This document shows positions 2 to 7,194 of a stretch of 22,183 bases of DNA, one piece after another. The translations under genes were made by a program, and so were the position numbers. The notes under the pieces are model-generated. The model saw only the letters and a program-made list of their open reading frames with translations, had not been told where the DNA came from and ran no database searches. The first letter of the stretch is position 1; the number at the start of each line of letters is the position of its first letter. This DNA comes from a virus: IMG/VR virus record IMGVR_UViG_3300027742_000036, positions 1 through 22,183 of that record. One strand, 5' to 3'.

Positions 2-67
2 ACTTCGGTGAACATGCCCGGCTTTGCGGTCAGCCGCTGCCCGGTGTTGGGGTGGAATACATCATGA
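2..67 (+). CDS. 3' end of an upstream gene (partial, unrecognised)
   Basis: Frame 2 is open from the left edge and ends with TGA at 65-67, giving about 21 residues that finish in RCPVLGWNTS. The stop overlaps the ATG at 64-66 of the next gene in an ATGA arrangement, the junction used throughout this window, and this is the main reason to believe the frame. Too little is visible for a function. The competing frame 1 is also open to the left edge, so this could instead be non-coding sequence under a longer version of the next gene. Confidence 0.4.
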   Translation, partial: TSVNMPGFAVSRCPVLGWNTS

Positions 68-558
68 TGCAGCGTGGCCCGGTTGGCGCGCGTGTCGATG
101 GCGGCGGTGTGTCCTTCCCCCACGATGATGCCTATTTGGTTGCAGATGCGCTTGAGAACCTGGCGCGGCGTGAGGTTGCCACCTATATCGCTGAGCTTGC
201 CCGAACCGGTAGTGCGCCGGATCCGATGGTGGATGCGCAGCCAAAGGTGCGGCCACTTGACTGGCAGGAAAACCAGCACGGCATGCGGCCAAGGACTGCG
301 GATGCGACTGATCTTGGGCCAGAGGGTTGGAAGCCTTTTTGCCGTATCAATCGCAAGGGCAAGACGGTCTATGATCGCTCGCGCTGCACCCCAGTGAAGA
401 TAGAACCAACAGTGCAGCAAATTGCCAACGCGCGCCGGGCTTGGCTGGATTGGTGGGGTGGCCTGTTGGATGTGCGCCTGACCTTGCAGACCGGCATGCC
501 GCTGACCCGTTGGGTGGTGACGGATGAGATGCCGCCGATGCGCCCTTGGCGAAAATGA
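64..558 (+). CDS. Phage protein of unknown function, candidate late regulator
   Basis: This encodes 164 aa from the ATG at 64; a second ATG at 67 and a GTG at 52 are in frame. I chose 64 because it makes an ATGA overlap with the stop of the preceding frame. No signal peptide or membrane segment is seen. The middle is basic (RINRKGKTVYDRSR) and the C-terminal third is Trp- and Arg-rich, ending PPMRPWRK. It has only two cysteines, so there is no obvious zinc finger. I recognise it only as a type of hypothetical protein found before the late genes of Rhodobacteraceae prophages. It is the last gene before a promoter/hairpin leader and the late operon, the position of Q-type antiterminators in lambdoid phages. 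That role is inference from position alone. Confidence 0.75.
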   Translation: MMQRGPVGARVDGGGVSFPHDDAYLVADALENLARREVATYIAELARTGSAPDPMVDAQPKVRPLDWQENQHGMRPRTADATDLGPEGWKPFCRINRKGKTVYDRSRCTPVKIEPTVQQIANARRAWLDWWGGLLDVRLTLQTGMPLTRWVVTDEMPPMRPWRK

Positions 559-559
559 T

Positions 560-588
560 TTGACTTTGAAATCTGCCCCCCCTAGACA
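560..588 (+). promoter_or_regulatory. Candidate late promoter (sigma70-like)
   Basis: TTGACT (560-565, 5 of 6 to the -35 consensus) and TAGACA (583-588, only 3 of 6 to the -10 consensus) are separated by exactly 17 bases that end in a run of seven C. It is the best promoter-like match in the 120-base non-coding gap before the late genes. The poor -10 box keeps confidence low. A -10 this weak could mean reliance on an activator. Confidence 0.35.
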
Positions 589-608
589 AGACGCACTCAA
601 CACAGCTG

Positions 609-639
609 CGCCCGGAGTGGATCACACCACTGCCGGGCG
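609..639 (+). terminator. Leader hairpin, possible intrinsic terminator
   Basis: CGCCCGG (609-615) plus AGTGG (616-620) pair with CCACT (627-631) and CCGGGCG (633-639). This makes a 12-bp stem with one bulged G (632) and a 6-base loop. It is followed by TTCTCATTT, a broken rather than perfect T-tract, so termination efficiency is uncertain. It sits about 20 bases downstream of the candidate promoter and 40 bases before the first late gene, so it could act as an antitermination-controlled leader terminator. Confidence 0.5.
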
Positions 640-678
640 TTCTCATTTGTGGCATTTACCCCAACATCGGAGATCATC

Positions 679-1128
679 ATGAAACAACTGGCCCTCGCCA
701 GCGTGGCACTTATTGTGGGTGCCTTCGCCGCCTTCGCTTCCCCTTCAACTGACCGGGCATTCGACATCCAGCCCCCTCCCTTTGTCGAGTTGATGGCCGT
801 TGATGACGTCGGCCTGTCCAACCTGCAGGCCATTGCCCTGCTTGCCGAGGCCGTTGCAACAGGGGATATGCACATGCACATCGCACACATCGAAGGTGCC
901 ACGCGCACCATTGGCAAAACACAGGGCTATCTTGGCCTGCCCATCCGTGACGTGAGGATCAACTGTACGGTGAATGGTGAAGACACACCCGCGATGGTCA
1001 CGGCCTGGCATCCGACACCGGATGAGCTGCAGGCATTGATGAAGGGCGCGCCGGTCTATGTTCAGTTGCTCGGCCAGTCGCACCCACCCATCATGGTCGG
1101 TACTGGCCCCGAGCCTGACCCGGTCTGA
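679..1128 (+). CDS. Small exported or membrane-anchored phage protein, function unknown
   Basis: This encodes 149 aa. The start is the ATG at 679, which has a GGAG (669-672) six bases upstream; a GTG at 649 in the same frame lies too close to the leader hairpin and lacks a ribosome site. The first ~22 residues look like a Sec signal peptide: MKQL, a hydrophobic core, then AFASPS with a plausible Ala-x-Ala-type cleavage site. The C-terminal half (about residues 75-149) has the feel of a family of short cytoplasmic phage hypothetical proteins, with GATRTIGKTQGYLGLP, then a Trp-His-Pro-Thr-Pro-Asp-Glu-Leu stretch and HPPIMV near the end. It is the first gene of the late operon, before the HNH nuclease. 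It could be an accessory (moron-like) gene, but nothing proves that. Confidence 0.8.
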   Translation: MKQLALASVALIVGAFAAFASPSTDRAFDIQPPPFVELMAVDDVGLSNLQAIALLAEAVATGDMHMHIAHIEGATRTIGKTQGYLGLPIRDVRINCTVNGEDTPAMVTAWHPTPDELQALMKGAPVYVQLLGQSHPPIMVGTGPEPDPV

Positions 1129-1136
1129 TAAGCCTA

Positions 1137-1511
1137 ATGGGTAAACTGGCGGGCCGAGGCCTGCCGCCTCGTTTGGCATCCGCACCACCTCGATTGGGGC
1201 GGGCGGCACCTCAAACGGAAACTCAGCGCACGCAACAGCGGGATGAAACCCAGCCTTGGCGCGCCTGGTACAAGACGGCGCGTTGGCAAAAGATGCGCCT
1301 CAAGGTGTTGAAACGCGATGACTACATCTGCCAACAAACCGGCGCGAGGTTGATTGGCAAACACCCTGCACCAAACAGCCCAGTCGCGGATCACAAGACC
1401 CCACATCGCGGCGATCCGGATCTGTTCTGGAGCGAAGACAACCTGCAGACCGTGTCGAAGGAATACCACGACCGGATCAAGCAAAGCCAAGAGCGGCGCG
1501 GCGACATCTGA
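1137..1511 (+). CDS. HNH endonuclease (packaging-associated)
   Basis: This encodes 124 aa. The C-terminal two thirds carry an HNH core: WQKMRLKVLKRDDYIC, then SPVADH with the first catalytic His, EDNLQ with the Asn, and KEYHD with the second His, followed by KQSQERR. In HK97-like cos phages, a small HNH protein encoded next to the terminase is needed for efficient cos cleavage and packaging; the position just before the terminase genes fits that role. The N-terminal ~40 residues are Pro/Arg-rich and probably disordered. The ATG at 1137 lies eight bases after the previous stop with no clear ribosome site, so translation may be coupled. The family call is firm; the packaging role is inferred from context. 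Confidence 0.9.
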   Translation: MGKLAGRGLPPRLASAPPRLGRAAPQTETQRTQQRDETQPWRAWYKTARWQKMRLKVLKRDDYICQQTGARLIGKHPAPNSPVADHKTPHRGDPDLFWSEDNLQTVSKEYHDRIKQSQERRGDI

Positions 1512-1608: not shown

Positions 1609-2091
1609 TTGAGTGACGTGGAATTTGACCTCTTTGGCGATCCTTGCACGTTACCCAATGGGCGGCGTGGTCGCCCGAAGCATGTGCCAACACAAAAATT
1701 GCGCAATAAAGTCATAGTGTTACTGGGGCTTGGATGGAGCCAAGAGCGGATAGCCAATGCAATTCACTGCTCAGGCCCAACCCTGCGACGGTATTATTTT
1801 TCGGAATTGAAACGCCGGTCAATGCAGCGAGACCGATTGGATGCCTGGCGGTTTGAGAAAGTGATGGCCGCTGCTGATAGCGGCAATGTTGGTGCGCTTC
1901 GGCTTTTGGATCAGCTGGTTGCCAAGAATGATATGATGCTGGCCGCGACCCGATTGCGAGATGCTCAAGACGAAACTCCACTTGAAAACATTGGCAAAAA
2001 GGAAATGGAGCGCAGGGCCGCACATGAATTGACATCATCGGACAAGGTCGAAGGCTGGGATGATGACCTGAAACCGGGGTACGCAAACTGA
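1609..2091 (+). CDS. terS: Small terminase subunit-like DNA-binding protein
   Basis: This encodes 160 aa. The start is a TTG at 1609, set by GGAGA (1596-1600) at 8-base spacing; the longer open frame back to 1354 is only the shadow of the HNH gene. Residues ~20-65 hold a helix-turn-helix of the homeodomain-like kind: RGRPKHVPTQKLRNKV, then GLGWSQERIANAIHCSGPTLRRYY. The rest is helical and charged (SGNVGALRLLDQLVAK). Small terminases bind the packaging site and load the large subunit. The stop TGA (2089-2091) overlaps the ATG of the large terminase by one base, which supports the assignment more strongly than sequence similarity alone. Confidence 0.85.
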   Translation: MSDVEFDLFGDPCTLPNGRRGRPKHVPTQKLRNKVIVLLGLGWSQERIANAIHCSGPTLRRYYFSELKRRSMQRDRLDAWRFEKVMAAADSGNVGALRLLDQLVAKNDMMLAATRLRDAQDETPLENIGKKEMERRAAHELTSSDKVEGWDDDLKPGYAN

Positions 2092-3809
2092 TGGACGGTG
2101 GATTTGATCATCACCGTAACCCGGCATGGAATACTGCCGTGCCTGATTGGGAAGATCGTATTTTGAATGGGCGTTCGTTGATCCCTGATCTGCCGTTGTT
2201 TGATCAGGTGGCCGAAAAAGCGCTGCGCATTTTCAAGCGATTGAAGGTGCCAGACCTGATTGGCACCCCAACGTATGGCGATGTATGCGAAAACTGGGTG
2301 TTTGATTTGGTTCGCGTCATCTTTGGCAGCTATGACCCGGAAACCAAACGCCGGATGATCCGAGAATTTTTCCTGTTGATCCCAAAGAAAAACGGAAAAT
2401 CAGCGATAGCAGCTGCGATAATAGTGACGGCCGCAATCCTGAATGAGCGCCCGCAAGCGGAACTTCTGTTGATTGCCCCGACGCAGGAAATTGCAAAGAT
2501 CGCGTTTAAGCAGGCCAAAGGCATGATTGCGCTGGATGATGCCCTGGCAAATGTCTTCAAAGTGCAGAACCACGTTAAGACGATCACACATCTGGACACT
2601 GAAGCTGAGATCAAAATCCTTTCATCTGATGGCGATGTGATTACCGGCTCTAAAGCTGCATATATCCTAGTGGATGAAACGCATGTTCTGGGGTCGAAGC
2701 ACAAGGCTCCTGATATTTTTCTTGAGCTTCGTGGAGGTTTGGCCTCGCGGCCAGAAGGTTTCATGCTGCAAATTACAACGCAGTCAAAGGAACGCCCTAC
2801 CGGCCAGTTTGACAAGGAGTTGGTGCGGGCCCGCGAGGTTCGGGACGGGACGCGTGATAGCTCTCTTTTGGCTGTGCTGTATGAACTGCCACAAGAAATG
2901 CTTGAGGCTGAAGCGTGGCGTGATGAGAAAACATGGGGGATGGTCAATCCCAATCTGGATCGCTCGGTGGCGCTCGAATACTTGCAGGAAAAATACCAAG
3001 AGGCGGAACGTGATGGCCCAGATGCGATGGCGTTGTTTGCTTCGCAACATCTGAATGTTGAGATTGGTATAGGCCTGAACTCTGGCCGATGGGTTGGTGC
3101 TGATTACTGGTTGAAGGGTGCCAAGTCCGACATGGATTTGCAGTACATTCTTGATGTTTGTGAAGTGTGCGTGGCTGGTGTTGACGGTGGCGGACTAGAT
3201 GATCTGTTGGGGTTTTCGGTGATGGGCCGCCATGCGCAGACCAAGGAATGGCTGCATTGGGGGCGGGCCTGGGCGGATCGGGATGTGCTGAAGTTGCGCC
3301 AGATCATCGCGCCCGAACTGCTGGCTCTGGCGGCGAAGGGTGAATTGATCCTGGTGGATAACATCGAGGAAGAGGCTAATCCTGAGATAGTAGAATTGTG
3401 CAGCCAAATCCGGGACGCGGACCTTTTCCCTGAGCAGAATGGAATTGGGATGGATCCCGAAGGTGTTGGATCAATCATTGATGCGCTGGTCGAGGCGGGG
3501 TTCGTGATCGAAAACATCGCGTCAATCAGTCAAGGGTACAAGCTGAACGCAGCGATCAAAACAGCGCCGGTCAAACTAAAAAACGGGACAATGAAACATT
3601 GCGGCCAAGGCTTGATGACCTGGTGTGTGGGCAATGCAAAAACCGAACAGCGAGGAAATGCTGTGATCGTAACAAAAGCACAAAGCGGATCGGCTAAAAT
3701 TGATCCGCTGATGGCAATGTTCAACACGGTGATGTTGATGAGCTGGAACCCAGTATCCGCCAAGAAAGACCTGAGTGCATTCTTTGAAAATCCGGTGATG
3801 GTCGTATGA
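2091..3809 (+). CDS. terL: Terminase large subunit (ATPase/nuclease packaging motor)
   Basis: This encodes 572 aa of the HK97-type Terminase_1 family. The Walker A motif is PKKNGKS (residues 98-104, Lys103) and the Walker B is YILVDETH (Asp195, Glu196), followed by a coupling region with LQITTQS. The C-terminal nuclease begins at GVDGGG (Asp365) with Asp369/Asp370 close by, and a later NGIGMDPEGVGSI segment. The protein pumps DNA into the prohead at the portal and cuts the concatemer. Length is normal for the family and no domain is missing. The start codon overlaps the terS stop and the stop overlaps the portal start (ATGA). Regional codon use is less GC-rich than in the tail genes. Confidence 0.97.
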   Translation: MDGGFDHHRNPAWNTAVPDWEDRILNGRSLIPDLPLFDQVAEKALRIFKRLKVPDLIGTPTYGDVCENWVFDLVRVIFGSYDPETKRRMIREFFLLIPKKNGKSAIAAAIIVTAAILNERPQAELLLIAPTQEIAKIAFKQAKGMIALDDALANVFKVQNHVKTITHLDTEAEIKILSSDGDVITGSKAAYILVDETHVLGSKHKAPDIFLELRGGLASRPEGFMLQITTQSKERPTGQFDKELVRAREVRDGTRDSSLLAVLYELPQEMLEAEAWRDEKTWGMVNPNLDRSVALEYLQEKYQEAERDGPDAMALFASQHLNVEIGIGLNSGRWVGADYWLKGAKSDMDLQYILDVCEVCVAGVDGGGLDDLLGFSVMGRHAQTKEWLHWGRAWADRDVLKLRQIIAPELLALAAKGELILVDNIEEEANPEIVELCSQIRDADLFPEQNGIGMDPEGVGSIIDALVEAGFVIENIASISQGYKLNAAIKTAPVKLKNGTMKHCGQGLMTWCVGNAKTEQRGNAVIVTKAQSGSAKIDPLMAMFNTVMLMSWNPVSAKKDLSAFFENPVMVV

Positions 3810-5035
3810 TGAAATTGATGCGCGCCGCCCTGCGCGGTGTTAAGGCGGAATTGGCGGCTGGTGAATCTGGTTGGGTGGCGTTGTCTGGCAATCAGTTGTT
3901 CAGTGAGATGGGTCTGTTGTCGAACGCAGGCACCACAGTGTCGTCTGAAACCGTTATGCGATTGTCTGCTGTCTGGGCTTGTGTGAGCCGGACATCACAG
4001 CTGATTGGAACGCTGCCGCTGAACCTATATGAAAAGCAGCTACAAGGCGGGCGCGTGCGTCTGGACAACGAGTTGTCAGCGATGGTGACGAATAAGCCGA
4101 ATGTTGTTCAAACTTCGGTTGAGTTTTGGGAAGGCACGGGTGCACATGCTTTGCTGCATGGCAACAGCTATTCTGAGAAACTGATGATCGCAAACCGATT
4201 GGTCGGATTGCGGCCATTGCTGTCTGCGGTGCCAAAACGGCGTGGTGATGGTCGGTTCGACTATCATGTGAACGAAAATGGTAAGATTTATGTATTGCCT
4301 CCTGAAAAGGTGTTTCACCTTCGTGGGTTTGGCGGTGGCGATGGCCTGGGCCTGTCGGCCGTCAAGTATGGAGTTCAGTCATTTGGCGCGGCTCTGGCGG
4401 CGGATTGCACGGCGTCCAAAGTGTTTTCCAACGCGCTGATGCCGTCTGGGGTGCTTGAATCGGACGATCTGTTGCAGCCAGAACAGCGAACGCAGTTGCA
4501 AGAAATGTTGGCCACCTATTCAGGATCCAGCAAAGCGGGAAAAACGCTGGTACTGGAAGCCGGGTTGAAGTGGAACCAGGTGCAGATGAATCCTGAAGAC
4601 GCGCAGCTGCTAGAAACGCGGCGGTTCCAAGTCGAGGATATTTGCCGATGGTTTGGCATGCCTCCAATCATCATTGGCCATTCGGCAGAAGGTCAAACCA
4701 TGTGGGGATCGGGTGTGGAAAGCATCATGCTGTCGTGGTTGACGACCGGCATCAACCCGCTGCTACGCCGGATCGAGGCCCGCATGAACTGCGATCTAGT
4801 GCCGAGTGACAAGCGCGGCCGTTGGTATTTTGAATTTAACCGGGAAGCCATGCTGCAGATGGACAGTAAGGCCAAGGGAGAGTTCCTGTCGAAAATGGCC
4901 ACCTCTGGCACACTGACGGCCAACGAGCGCCGGGAAGTGCTGAACAAAGATCATCACGCAGATCCGGCGGCGAATGATTTGCTGGCGCAAACTGCGCTGG
5001 CCCCGCTGGAAGACCTGAGAAAGGAAGACACATGA
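3806..5035 (+). CDS. Portal protein (HK97 family)
   Basis: This encodes 409 aa. HK97-family portal hallmarks are present: MRLSAVWACVSRTSQLIGTLP near residue 50, HALLHGNSYSEK near 110, and the helical block with RWFGMPPIIIGHSAEGQTMW near 280, then a stem-helix region and MNCDLVP. The dodecameric portal forms the DNA entry vertex, docks the terminase and later carries the neck. ATG at 3806 overlaps the terL stop; an adjacent in-frame ATG at 3809 is an alternative. The last ~40 residues are charged and helical (LTANERREVLNKD), as is usual for this family. The stop overlaps the protease start. Confidence 0.95.
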   Translation: MMKLMRAALRGVKAELAAGESGWVALSGNQLFSEMGLLSNAGTTVSSETVMRLSAVWACVSRTSQLIGTLPLNLYEKQLQGGRVRLDNELSAMVTNKPNVVQTSVEFWEGTGAHALLHGNSYSEKLMIANRLVGLRPLLSAVPKRRGDGRFDYHVNENGKIYVLPPEKVFHLRGFGGGDGLGLSAVKYGVQSFGAALAADCTASKVFSNALMPSGVLESDDLLQPEQRTQLQEMLATYSGSSKAGKTLVLEAGLKWNQVQMNPEDAQLLETRRFQVEDICRWFGMPPIIIGHSAEGQTMWGSGVESIMLSWLTTGINPLLRRIEARMNCDLVPSDKRGRWYFEFNREAMLQMDSKAKGEFLSKMATSGTLTANERREVLNKDHHADPAANDLLAQTALAPLEDLRKEDT

Positions 5036-5868
5036 AACGCAACCTGCCAAAGGTAGATGTGAGCGTGCGCCCTGGCGTGCGCAGTGATATTAGCTCCACC
5101 GCGATTGACCGGTGGAGCCCTGATCTGCGTGCCGCTGCAAATGGGGATGACGCCACAATTTCCATTCTCGATCCGATCGGTCAGGATTTCTGGGGTGAAG
5201 GCGTGACTGCCAAACGGATATCGGCGGCTTTGCGATCCATCGGGGATAACCCGGTCACGGTGAATATCAACAGCCCTGGCGGCGATGTGTTTGAAGGGTT
5301 GGCGATCTACAATCTGTTGCGGGAACACAGCGCAGAGGTGACAGTGAATATTCTGGGCCTAGCCGCGAGTTCGGCATCGGTGATCGCTATGGCCGGAGAT
5401 CGCGTCCGGATTGGCCGCGCGGCGTTTGTTATGATCCATAATAGCTGGGTGATCGCCATGGGTGACCGCCACGCGCTGCGTGACGTATCTGACTGGCTGG
5501 AACCCTTCGATGCTGCCCTTGGGGATGTCTATGAGGCCCGCACGGGCCTGTCGCGTCCCAAGCTGATGGGCATGATGGACGATGAAACCTGGATCAATGG
5601 CCAGTCGGCGGTTGATCAGGGCTTTGCCGACGATCTTTTGGAATCGGATGACGTTGCCCATGACGGTGAAGGGGCCTCGGCCAAATCACTGCGGGCAGAA
5701 AAGAAATTTGACCTTGTTGCAGCGCGAGCTGGCCTTTCGAGAAGTGCCGCCCGCGATCTTCTGCGCGAGTGCAAGGGGGGCCTGCCTGGCGCGGCCCTGA
5801 CCCACACGCCCGGTGCTGTGGATTTGGCAGCGCAGATTAATGATTTGCGCGACTTTTTGAAAACATAA
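5032..5868 (+). CDS. ClpP-like prohead maturation protease
   Basis: This encodes 278 aa of the ClpP/S49-type serine protease family used by HK97-fold phages. Residues ~45-205 hold the ClpP core: NINSPGGDVFEGLAIYN, then GLAASSASVIAMAGD with catalytic Ser113, and MIHNSW with catalytic His136. The third residue is probably Asp183 or Asp184 in MMDDETW, followed by INGQSAVDQGFAD. It cleaves the capsid N-terminal delta domain and itself during prohead maturation. Residues ~210-278 are a charged tail beyond the ClpP core, possibly flexible and lost by self-cleavage. ATGA overlap with the portal stop (start 5032). The capsid gene begins 15 bases after the stop. Confidence 0.95.
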   Translation: MKRNLPKVDVSVRPGVRSDISSTAIDRWSPDLRAAANGDDATISILDPIGQDFWGEGVTAKRISAALRSIGDNPVTVNINSPGGDVFEGLAIYNLLREHSAEVTVNILGLAASSASVIAMAGDRVRIGRAAFVMIHNSWVIAMGDRHALRDVSDWLEPFDAALGDVYEARTGLSRPKLMGMMDDETWINGQSAVDQGFADDLLESDDVAHDGEGASAKSLRAEKKFDLVAARAGLSRSAARDLLRECKGGLPGAALTHTPGAVDLAAQINDLRDFLKT

Positions 5869-5883
5869 CTGAAAGGAAAGACT

Positions 5884-7194
5884 GTGAAAAAGTCTCTCAT
5901 TAATACCAGCGCCCTGGCGCTGCACCTTGCGGCGTGCCCGGTGGGTGTGCTTGCTAAACCACGCGCGGAAGCAACCGGTGATGTGGCCCACGCCCTTGCT
6001 GGTCTGAAAACCGACATCACTGCTATGCGGGAAGATCTGTTTCCGAAGGCCGAACTGGCACTGAAAGAAGCAGCCAAATCGGGCGAGATCGGCGCCGAAG
6101 TGAAAGTGGGCCTGGACAAGCTGATGGCCGACTTCAACGAAGCAAATGCGCAGGCGGCTAAACTTGAAGGCAAGATGGAAGTCTTGGAAACCCGCAACAC
6201 TGACCTTGAACAGTTGGTGGCGCAGGGTGGCATTGGCGCTGGTGGCAAAGTAACCACGATGGGCGCACAAGTGGCCGAATCTGAGGGCCTGAAGGCATGG
6301 ATTAGTGGCGGCGCCCAAGGCTCGCACAAGATCGATGTTCAGGCAGCTATCACATCTGCAGGCGGGTCAGGTGGTGGTCTGATCTGGTCAGACCGCGATG
6401 AGGTGCCGGTAAATATGGCCCGCCGCCGACTGCGGATCCGTGACCTTCTGGATGTGGTGACAACCACAGCGCAGGTAATTGACTACACCAAGCAGACCAC
6501 GCGCACTAACGCCGCAGCCCCCGTGGCTGAAGAAGGCGCGGCCCCAGCGTCCAGCTACGGTTGGACCAAAGACACTGCCAATGTGCGCAAGATTGCCCAT
6601 GTTACCCATATCTCGGATGAGGCACTTGCGGATAGCGGGCAGCTTCAGGGTGAGATCGATGGCGAGATGCGGTACGGTTTGGACTTGGTCGAAGAAAATC
6701 AGATCCTTGCTGGCGATGGCACTGGCGAAAACTTGTCGGGTTTGTTGACCGATGCAACAGCGTTTTCTGCGGCGGCGGGGCTTCCCAATACCGACCGGAT
6801 TGAGCGCTTGCGGTTGGCGATCCTGCAGGTGACGCTGGCCGATTATGCCGCGGACGGTGTGGTGATGAACCCGACGGACTGGGCGGGGGTTGAGCTGCAG
6901 CGCGAAACCGCCACGGGCAAGTTTATCATTGGTGGGCCCGATGCGCCTGCTGGGCCATCCCTGTGGCGTTTGCCAGTGGTCGAAAGCAACTCGATGACAG
7001 CGAACAGCTGGCTGGTGGGGGCCATGATGATGGCTGCGCGCCTCTATGATCGGATGGAAACGGAAATTCTGATTTCGTCCGAGCATGGCACCAACTTCGT
7101 GGATGGCATGAAAACGATGAAGGGCACCAAGCGTCTGGCACTTGCTGTGCGCCGCCCGACTTCGTTGGTGACTGGTAACTTCACCTTCGCCTGA
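5884..7194 (+). CDS. Major capsid protein (HK97 fold)
   Basis: This encodes 436 aa. The start is a GTG at 5884 behind AAAGGAAAG (5872-5880). Residues ~35-125 form an Ala/Lys/Glu-rich coiled-coil region that acts as the scaffold-like delta domain removed by the protease. The mature fold starts about 130-150. HK97 features follow: LIWSDRDEVPVNMA, the E-loop area rich in Thr/Ala, VTHISDEALAD, the spine helix GEMRYGLDLVEENQILAGDG, and the P-domain ending TSLVTGNFTFA. Oddly, residues 1-25 look like a bacterial lipoprotein leader (MKKSL, hydrophobic stretch, LAAC). Because they lie within the domain expected to be cut away, this may be chance. A strong terminator-like hairpin follows the gene. Confidence 0.95.
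   Translation: MKKSLINTSALALHLAACPVGVLAKPRAEATGDVAHALAGLKTDITAMREDLFPKAELALKEAAKSGEIGAEVKVGLDKLMADFNEANAQAAKLEGKMEVLETRNTDLEQLVAQGGIGAGGKVTTMGAQVAESEGLKAWISGGAQGSHKIDVQAAITSAGGSGGGLIWSDRDEVPVNMARRRLRIRDLLDVVTTTAQVIDYTKQTTRTNAAAPVAEEGAAPASSYGWTKDTANVRKIAHVTHISDEALADSGQLQGEIDGEMRYGLDLVEENQILAGDGTGENLSGLLTDATAFSAAAGLPNTDRIERLRLAILQVTLADYAADGVVMNPTDWAGVELQRETATGKFIIGGPDAPAGPSLWRLPVVESNSMTANSWLVGAMMMAARLYDRMETEILISSEHGTNFVDGMKTMKGTKRLALAVRRPTSLVTGNFTFA

Follow-up and report, generated by a model that had tools for sequence, protein, structure and literature searches.

A conserved promoter–hairpin element and its phrog_9306 protein, a probable on-switch for virion genes in Rhodobacteraceae phages

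The window analysed here, which is the whole 22,183-base stretch of a virus contig (IMGVR_UViG_3300027742_000036), begins inside a gene whose product has phrog_9306, a family of uncharacterised function, as its sole profile match. The gene is followed on the same strand by promoter-like boxes, a bulged hairpin and a long series of virion genes (Table 1). Its open frame has 185 codons in the window, meets no upstream stop and is open at the contig start. The length of 164 aa given for it in the earlier note was wrong, as it counted from the first ATG of the truncated frame, the contig end having cut the gene; a full-length relative that is 97% identical to the window protein (L005, IMGVR_UViG_3300027852_000975, 3812-4558) comprises 248 aa. 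A look-alike (IEGATRxIGKSQG) of the first protein encoded past the hairpin is found directly behind the element in another locus (L099), and the first late gene could thus belong to a cassette that recurs.

Table 1. Features at the start of the window
Feature	Position	Strand	Remarks
phrog_9306 gene, 3' part (5' end lost at contig start)	1..558	+	phrog_9306 E=4e-19; predicted Q21-like antiterminator
-35 box TTGACT	560..565	+	directly past the stop codon of the gene; perfect TTGAC here in 68/76 loci
17-nt spacer	566..582	+	candidate site for the DNA-binding element of the protein, by analogy with the lambdoid Q binding element (PMC6606751)
-10 box TAGACA, class A element	583..588	+	spacing of 17 or 18 nt from the -35 box in 11 of 12 class A loci
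Initially transcribed region	589..607	+	start predicted at about 595-597, which would place the hairpin from about +12
Leader hairpin, bulged G632	608..640	+	8 bp, bulge, 5 bp, 6-nt loop; probable intrinsic terminator/attenuator
T-rich tract TTCTCATTT	640..648	+	63% T in the 9 nt past the hairpin (75 loci)
First late-operon gene, signal-peptide-like protein of uncharacterised function	679..1128	+	weak phrog_34105/phrog_25433
HNH endonuclease	1137..1511	+	phrog_589 E=5.5e-24
Small protein before TerL (small-terminase position)	1609..2091	+	phrog_12540 E=3e-43, uncharacterised function
Terminase large subunit	2091..3809	+	phrog_9 E=2e-110
Portal protein, start of long co-directional virion operon	3806..5035	+	phrog_12 E=5.5e-90

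Pfam gave no match for the window protein, and sequence searches of Pfam, NCBIfam and the PDB with the protein returned nothing useful; weak matches to ThiG in seven family members (best 1.5e-6) were judged spurious. All 83 aligned members match phrog_9306, and most are 210-250 aa long. More than 100 relatives are spread across Rhodobacteraceae phages and prophages, with 33 loci in Rhodobacteraceae genomes, 80 in IMG/VR, 11 plasmid records and three phage records, including Paracoccus phage Pben1, in which the gene (pben1_p34) sits past the replication genes and before the terminase. The gene occurs in 23 of the 198 Rhodobacteraceae genomes of the family sample and in four of the 398 genomes sampled more widely from the phylum; it was the alignment query that yielded loci in the search of genome contigs, a single-protein query yielding none. 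Two records deposited as Synechococcus and Nostoc phages (L002 and L004) carry an identical Q-like protein and an element of the Rhodobacteraceae type, and their real hosts could be alphaproteobacteria inhabiting cyanobacterial cultures. The latter record (PP438413.1, Nostoc phage Nsp-JY21) also contains, at about 5700-5910 in the interval that separates the Q-like gene from the late genes, a poly-G/poly-C block with the Illumina-adapter-like GCTCTTCCGATCT, which is probably an assembly artefact of the deposited record.

The TTGACT-17-TAGACA boxes described in the earlier note are indeed present at 560-588, and comparison of the loci separates two promoter classes, A and B. In class A the second box reads CTAGACA and lies 17 or 18 nt from the -35 box in 11 of 12 loci. 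Class B has TTGACATATT as its second box, at a distance of 13 or 14 nt in 47 of the 60 loci with a clear box, and a CATATT, preceded by TGn, that is thereby placed 17 or 18 nt from the -35 box. Between the starts of the second box and the hairpin there are 25 or 26 nt in nearly all loci, and the bases conserved ahead of the hairpin are G-15, C-14, A-9, C-7, A-4 and T-1. The spacer is poorly conserved family-wide and similar inside subclades, while upstream of the boxes there is little information besides an A-rich stretch. The initial transcript, in which TGCG is conserved alongside G-15, C-14, A-9, C-7 and A-4, contains no TATAAT-like hexamer of the kind expected for a -10-like pause. Class B elements do contain a TTGAC-TTGAC direct repeat that is indistinguishable from the promoter boxes, and spacers are subclade-specific; neither a direct-repeat binding element nor a -10-like pause sequence is clearly assignable in the element. 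A lambda-type, -35-like pause element is not claimed, the second box being off the matching position relative to the -10. A generic promoter/terminator scan of the window did not list the promoter–hairpin, because the -10 box does not end in T and the T tract is discontinuous; the T at -7 is often absent from alphaproteobacterial promoters (PMC8407463), which partly explains this miss.

Downstream of these boxes, and again as the earlier note had it, lies a hairpin followed by a T-rich tail. In the window it folds with -24.1 kcal/mol (z = -5.2; none of 200 shuffles was equally stable), and a search for the layout under strict criteria gives one instance in the window as against 0.01 per block-shuffled window. 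Across loci the hairpins average -23.5 kcal/mol and combine a lower stem of 7-8 bp, almost invariant in sequence, with an upper stem of mostly 3-5 bp that varies in sequence and length and shows compensatory changes (A-U, C-G and G-C at one pair). RNAalifold recovered the invariant lower stem only, because the length of the upper stem varies, and the upper stem was analysed by folding each hairpin individually; its pairs exceeded those of shuffles in all 51 distinct hairpins (4.9 vs 3.0). A one-base bulge or a 1x1 mismatch follows after 6-9 pairs in 67 of 75 hairpins. The T content past the hairpin (Table 1) compares with a background of 18%, and the 9 nt ahead of it contain 39% A. It should be noted that the T tract is interrupted (TTTnCRTTT), and the strength of termination is therefore uncertain. 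Covariance models of Rfam 15 gave no match to the element, with a single chance-level match elsewhere. Judged by anatomy and conservation, then, a sigma70 promoter is followed by a proximal intrinsic terminator, the activities of both being predicted.

Gene, promoter and hairpin are co-conserved. The element stands directly past the phrog_9306 gene in 59 of 105 distinct loci, with a shared order of TTGAC, a second box T(T/A)GACA, 18-19 nt, a GCGCCCG hairpin and TTTnCRTTT. A covariance model trained on 52 elements adjoining the gene retrieved 20 further elements in loci lacking an adjoining one, mostly displaced by 0.5-3 kb, and its best match was on the strand of the gene in every locus. Because the hairpin accompanies the promoter where other genes lie in between, a reading of the element as the terminator belonging to the phrog_9306 gene itself was rejected. 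In a gene-blind test, in which the DNA pattern was scanned over IMG/VR, 48 previously unseen records were obtained; 36 of them score as true elements by the covariance model, and exactly those 36 encode the protein, the remaining 12 having neither element nor gene. The extra DNA that separates the Q-like gene from the late promoter in several loci (L015, L051, L055-L062 and L064; 0.5-2.4 kb) differs from phage to phage and resembles moron-like cargo.

The gene never adjoins the element in a clade comprising 22 proteins; for most of these, a whole-record search located a second element subtype at another place within the genome or virus record that holds the gene. Nine virus records hold gene and element on one molecule, whereas whole bacterial genomes could hold another prophage. 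A gene kilobases away from an element in the same record is suggestive of a factor that works in trans at a site in cis. This second subtype (L265-L287, e.g. L276:1460-1570) is very uniform, consisting of TTGACAAAGCTGCCCCCCTTGACCTACCCCTTGATCATCGAAGAATT and a hairpin, and its leader ahead of the hairpin shows much stronger conservation than that of the main type. On a tree of 104 proteins the label 'adjacent element' changes nine times, a number in keeping with an ancient association that has undergone several displacements. The earlier note had held that homologues in phages without the leader would speak against its reading; for most homologues this objection fails, since the element is displaced within the same record, and it retains force for two records in which a whole-record search detected the gene and no element, L112 (47 kb) and L124 (29 kb), and for some genomes. 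A third such record, L120, is a short fragment (7 kb), and in four genomes with the gene no element was detected among 150 scored of some 2,000-4,000 candidates. A far relative (L232, 1513-3273; E = 1.3e-9), from a genome of the wider-phylum sample, shows past its gene a TTGAAC, TTTGACATAGTG, a hairpin that carries a 1x1 mismatch, and a tail containing T; the layout is alike, the stem sequence is entirely unlike that of the main type, and the locus suggests that the family extends beyond Rhodobacteraceae.

What follows the element is likewise consistent. A long open frame begins no more than 4.5 kb from the element in 61 loci, and in 55 of them it encodes a terminase large subunit, of the phrog_9 type in 35 and the phrog_15 type in 20; with two terminase types represented, the switch would be common to phages with different packaging modules.

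Two AlphaFold models of the protein were examined, one of the full-length relative L005 (pLDDT 89.7) and one of L118, 31% identical (pLDDT 89.3). Foldseek against the PDB gave no significant match for either; the best of 350,542 chains for the L005 model was phage-21 Q (6jnx, E = 0.84, not significant), Q21 was absent from the best 50 matches for the L118 model, and a search of viral models returned nothing. VIA-align, which re-examines Foldseek candidates only, placed five Q21 entries as the top five of 304 chains for the L005 model (Z 6.7-5.1), the next row, at Z 4.0, covering an N-terminal helix only; for the L118 model the top four of 994 chains were Q21 (Z 7.1-5.7), followed by 2.9. The alignments vary in extent: Z 6.7 is reached over 130 residues (rmsd 8.8) for the first model, and for the second Z 7.1 over 122 residues (rmsd 8.1), or else 6.8 at 4.5 A with 98 residues aligned. 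The fold match extends over Q21 residues 10-153 with Z below 8 throughout. As Q21 chains alone stand out among the re-aligned chains, we have moderate confidence that the predicted fold is that of Q21. In Q21 a long loop joining the two HTH helices enters the minor groove (PMC6606751); our models appear to place a strand-rich insertion before the long C-terminal helix, about where Q21 has this loop. At the level of sequence the relationship is not visible: the PF06530 profile matched none of the 83 members at E<=1, hhalign against 15 and 6 PF06530 members gave non-significant probabilities of 1.9 and 0.2, with a non-significant local match pairing HPDAe-IIAaaV with C-DDDG-IIDaaV, and the profiles PF03589 (lambda Q) and PF06323 (Q82) likewise found no match in the 83 members. 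Comparison with known Q families, as the earlier note had proposed, thus points to a predicted resemblance to phage-21 Q, and its suggestion of a new class of late regulator is borne out for the sequence family and not for the fold, which is predicted to be Q21-like.

We propose that the promoter–hairpin, together with the phrog_9306 protein, is probably the on-switch for the virion genes, and we consider it likely that phrog_9306 is a sequence-distinct branch of Q21-like antiterminators operating at a compact promoter–terminator. The reading of the region as a Q/pR'/tR' layout, first put forward in the earlier note, is thereby supported: the gene lies ahead of the late operon on the same strand, element and terminase come next in most loci, and co-conservation, presence of the leader in most homologues and a Q-like predicted fold all held. 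The boxes at 560-588 would be the late promoter of the phage, probably active unaided, from which polymerase would proceed some 45-50 nt before halting at the bulged hairpin and T tract, so as to yield a short leader RNA only. The phrog_9306 protein, encoded upstream, would bind the promoter DNA and load onto polymerase detained in the leader. The Q protein of phage 21 meets polymerase during sigma-dependent pausing at the late promoter and, as a ring inside the RNA exit channel, blocks hairpin formation (PMC6606751); by analogy we infer the same for the phrog_9306 protein, which would act as a nozzle, narrowing the exit channel such that hairpins cannot fold; the modified polymerase would then transcribe the terminase–head–tail operon. 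It is also conceivable, albeit unlikely, that phrog_9306 is a separate, previously unrecognised antiterminator lineage that reads both promoter DNA and the nascent bulged hairpin, the latter serving as a stop and as a loading or pausing signal.

Other explanations fare less well. The protein might instead activate initiation at the late promoter, with the hairpin serving not as a terminator but as a 5' leader structure that affects the stability or translation of the RNA. The fixed promoter–hairpin distance and the conserved initial transcript could indeed serve initiation or RNA stability, and the interruption of the T tract would fit, yet the -35 box is near-perfect in most loci (68 of 76), unlike that of typical activator-dependent promoters, so that a constitutive promoter fits better; in view also of the T-rich hairpin tail and a predicted fold like that of the antiterminator Q21, we regard activation as improbable. 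Less probable again is that the hairpin RNA is itself a put-like or nut-like element, giving polymerase resistance to later terminators with or without a protein. HK022 put RNA sets a precedent for a leader RNA doing so (PMC9378689), and the frequent bulge or 1x1 mismatch and the nearly invariant lower stem seem to exceed what a plain terminator calls for; the T-rich tail is nevertheless typical of terminators, co-occurrence with a protein of predicted Q21-like fold is strict, and the stem of the far relative L232 has an entirely different sequence. Very little speaks for the hairpin as terminator of the early operon, with the promoter an unrelated neighbour and the gene in another role: its position directly past the stop codon in the window and 59 loci would suit this, but the hairpin follows the promoter at a constant spacing and the two shift together when genes intervene, by which it is refuted as a general account. 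Chance co-occurrence of promoter-like boxes and a GC-rich hairpin, with which the silence of the generic scan would agree, is practically ruled out by conservation across more than 100 divergent loci, which we take as decisive.

If the preferred reading of phrog_9306 as a Q21-like antiterminator holds, a function can be offered for an uncharacterised family of phage proteins, and Q21-type antitermination would extend to Alphaproteobacteria. With the cis-element model, the late promoter can be located across a sizeable group of Rhodobacteraceae phages, and the more than 100 natural sets of promoter, hairpin and protein may prove useful for studying site recognition, the role of the conserved bulge and the co-evolution of Q and promoter. 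The switch may likewise offer a means of approaching prophage induction in Paracoccus, Phaeobacter, Rhodovulum and their relatives. We found no report of a Q system in the literature on late control in Rhodobacteraceae outside subscription journals, and the main text of the Pben1 description mentions no antiterminator, promoter or terminator (PMC6536676).

Three Q families are recognised, PF06530, PF03589 and PF06323 (PMC7171158), and by sequence phrog_9306 falls outside them; membership in PF06530 is not claimed. The closest parallel is phage 21 Q (21PR'/21tR', PF06530), whose gene likewise precedes the late promoter, which is followed by a leader terminator, and over nearly the whole chain of which the predicted phrog_9306 fold extends (Z up to 7.1). 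In contrast to Q21, phrog_9306 proteins lack a PF06530 match, are longer and seem to carry a strand-rich insertion at the HTH loop, while their hairpin would start from about +12 and keeps its bulge, and their hosts are Alphaproteobacteria. Lambda Q (PF03589) and Q82 (PF06323) share genome position and proposed role, but no Pfam match to them exists in the 83 members. Unrelated proteins can do the same job, as illustrated by AlpA (PMC7969949) and by GafZ (PMC11150451), the latter in an alphaproteobacterium. AlpA of Pseudomonas aeruginosa resembles the present case in that a promoter is followed by proximal intrinsic terminators bypassed with the factor (PMC7969949); host and protein differ, family scans showed no similarity, and the two are set apart by description. 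GafZ/GafA, of the Caulobacter and Rhodobacter gene transfer agents, is an alphaproteobacterial antiterminator of a phage-like late cluster with no reported similarity to Q proteins (PMC11150451); compared by description, it differs in that the terminator described there sits past the first gene (PMC11150451). Taken against these systems, all indirect signs are that phrog_9306 works like a Q system, as a form of late control of the Q type whose factor is Q21-like and distinct in sequence and whose leader terminator is compact and bulged.
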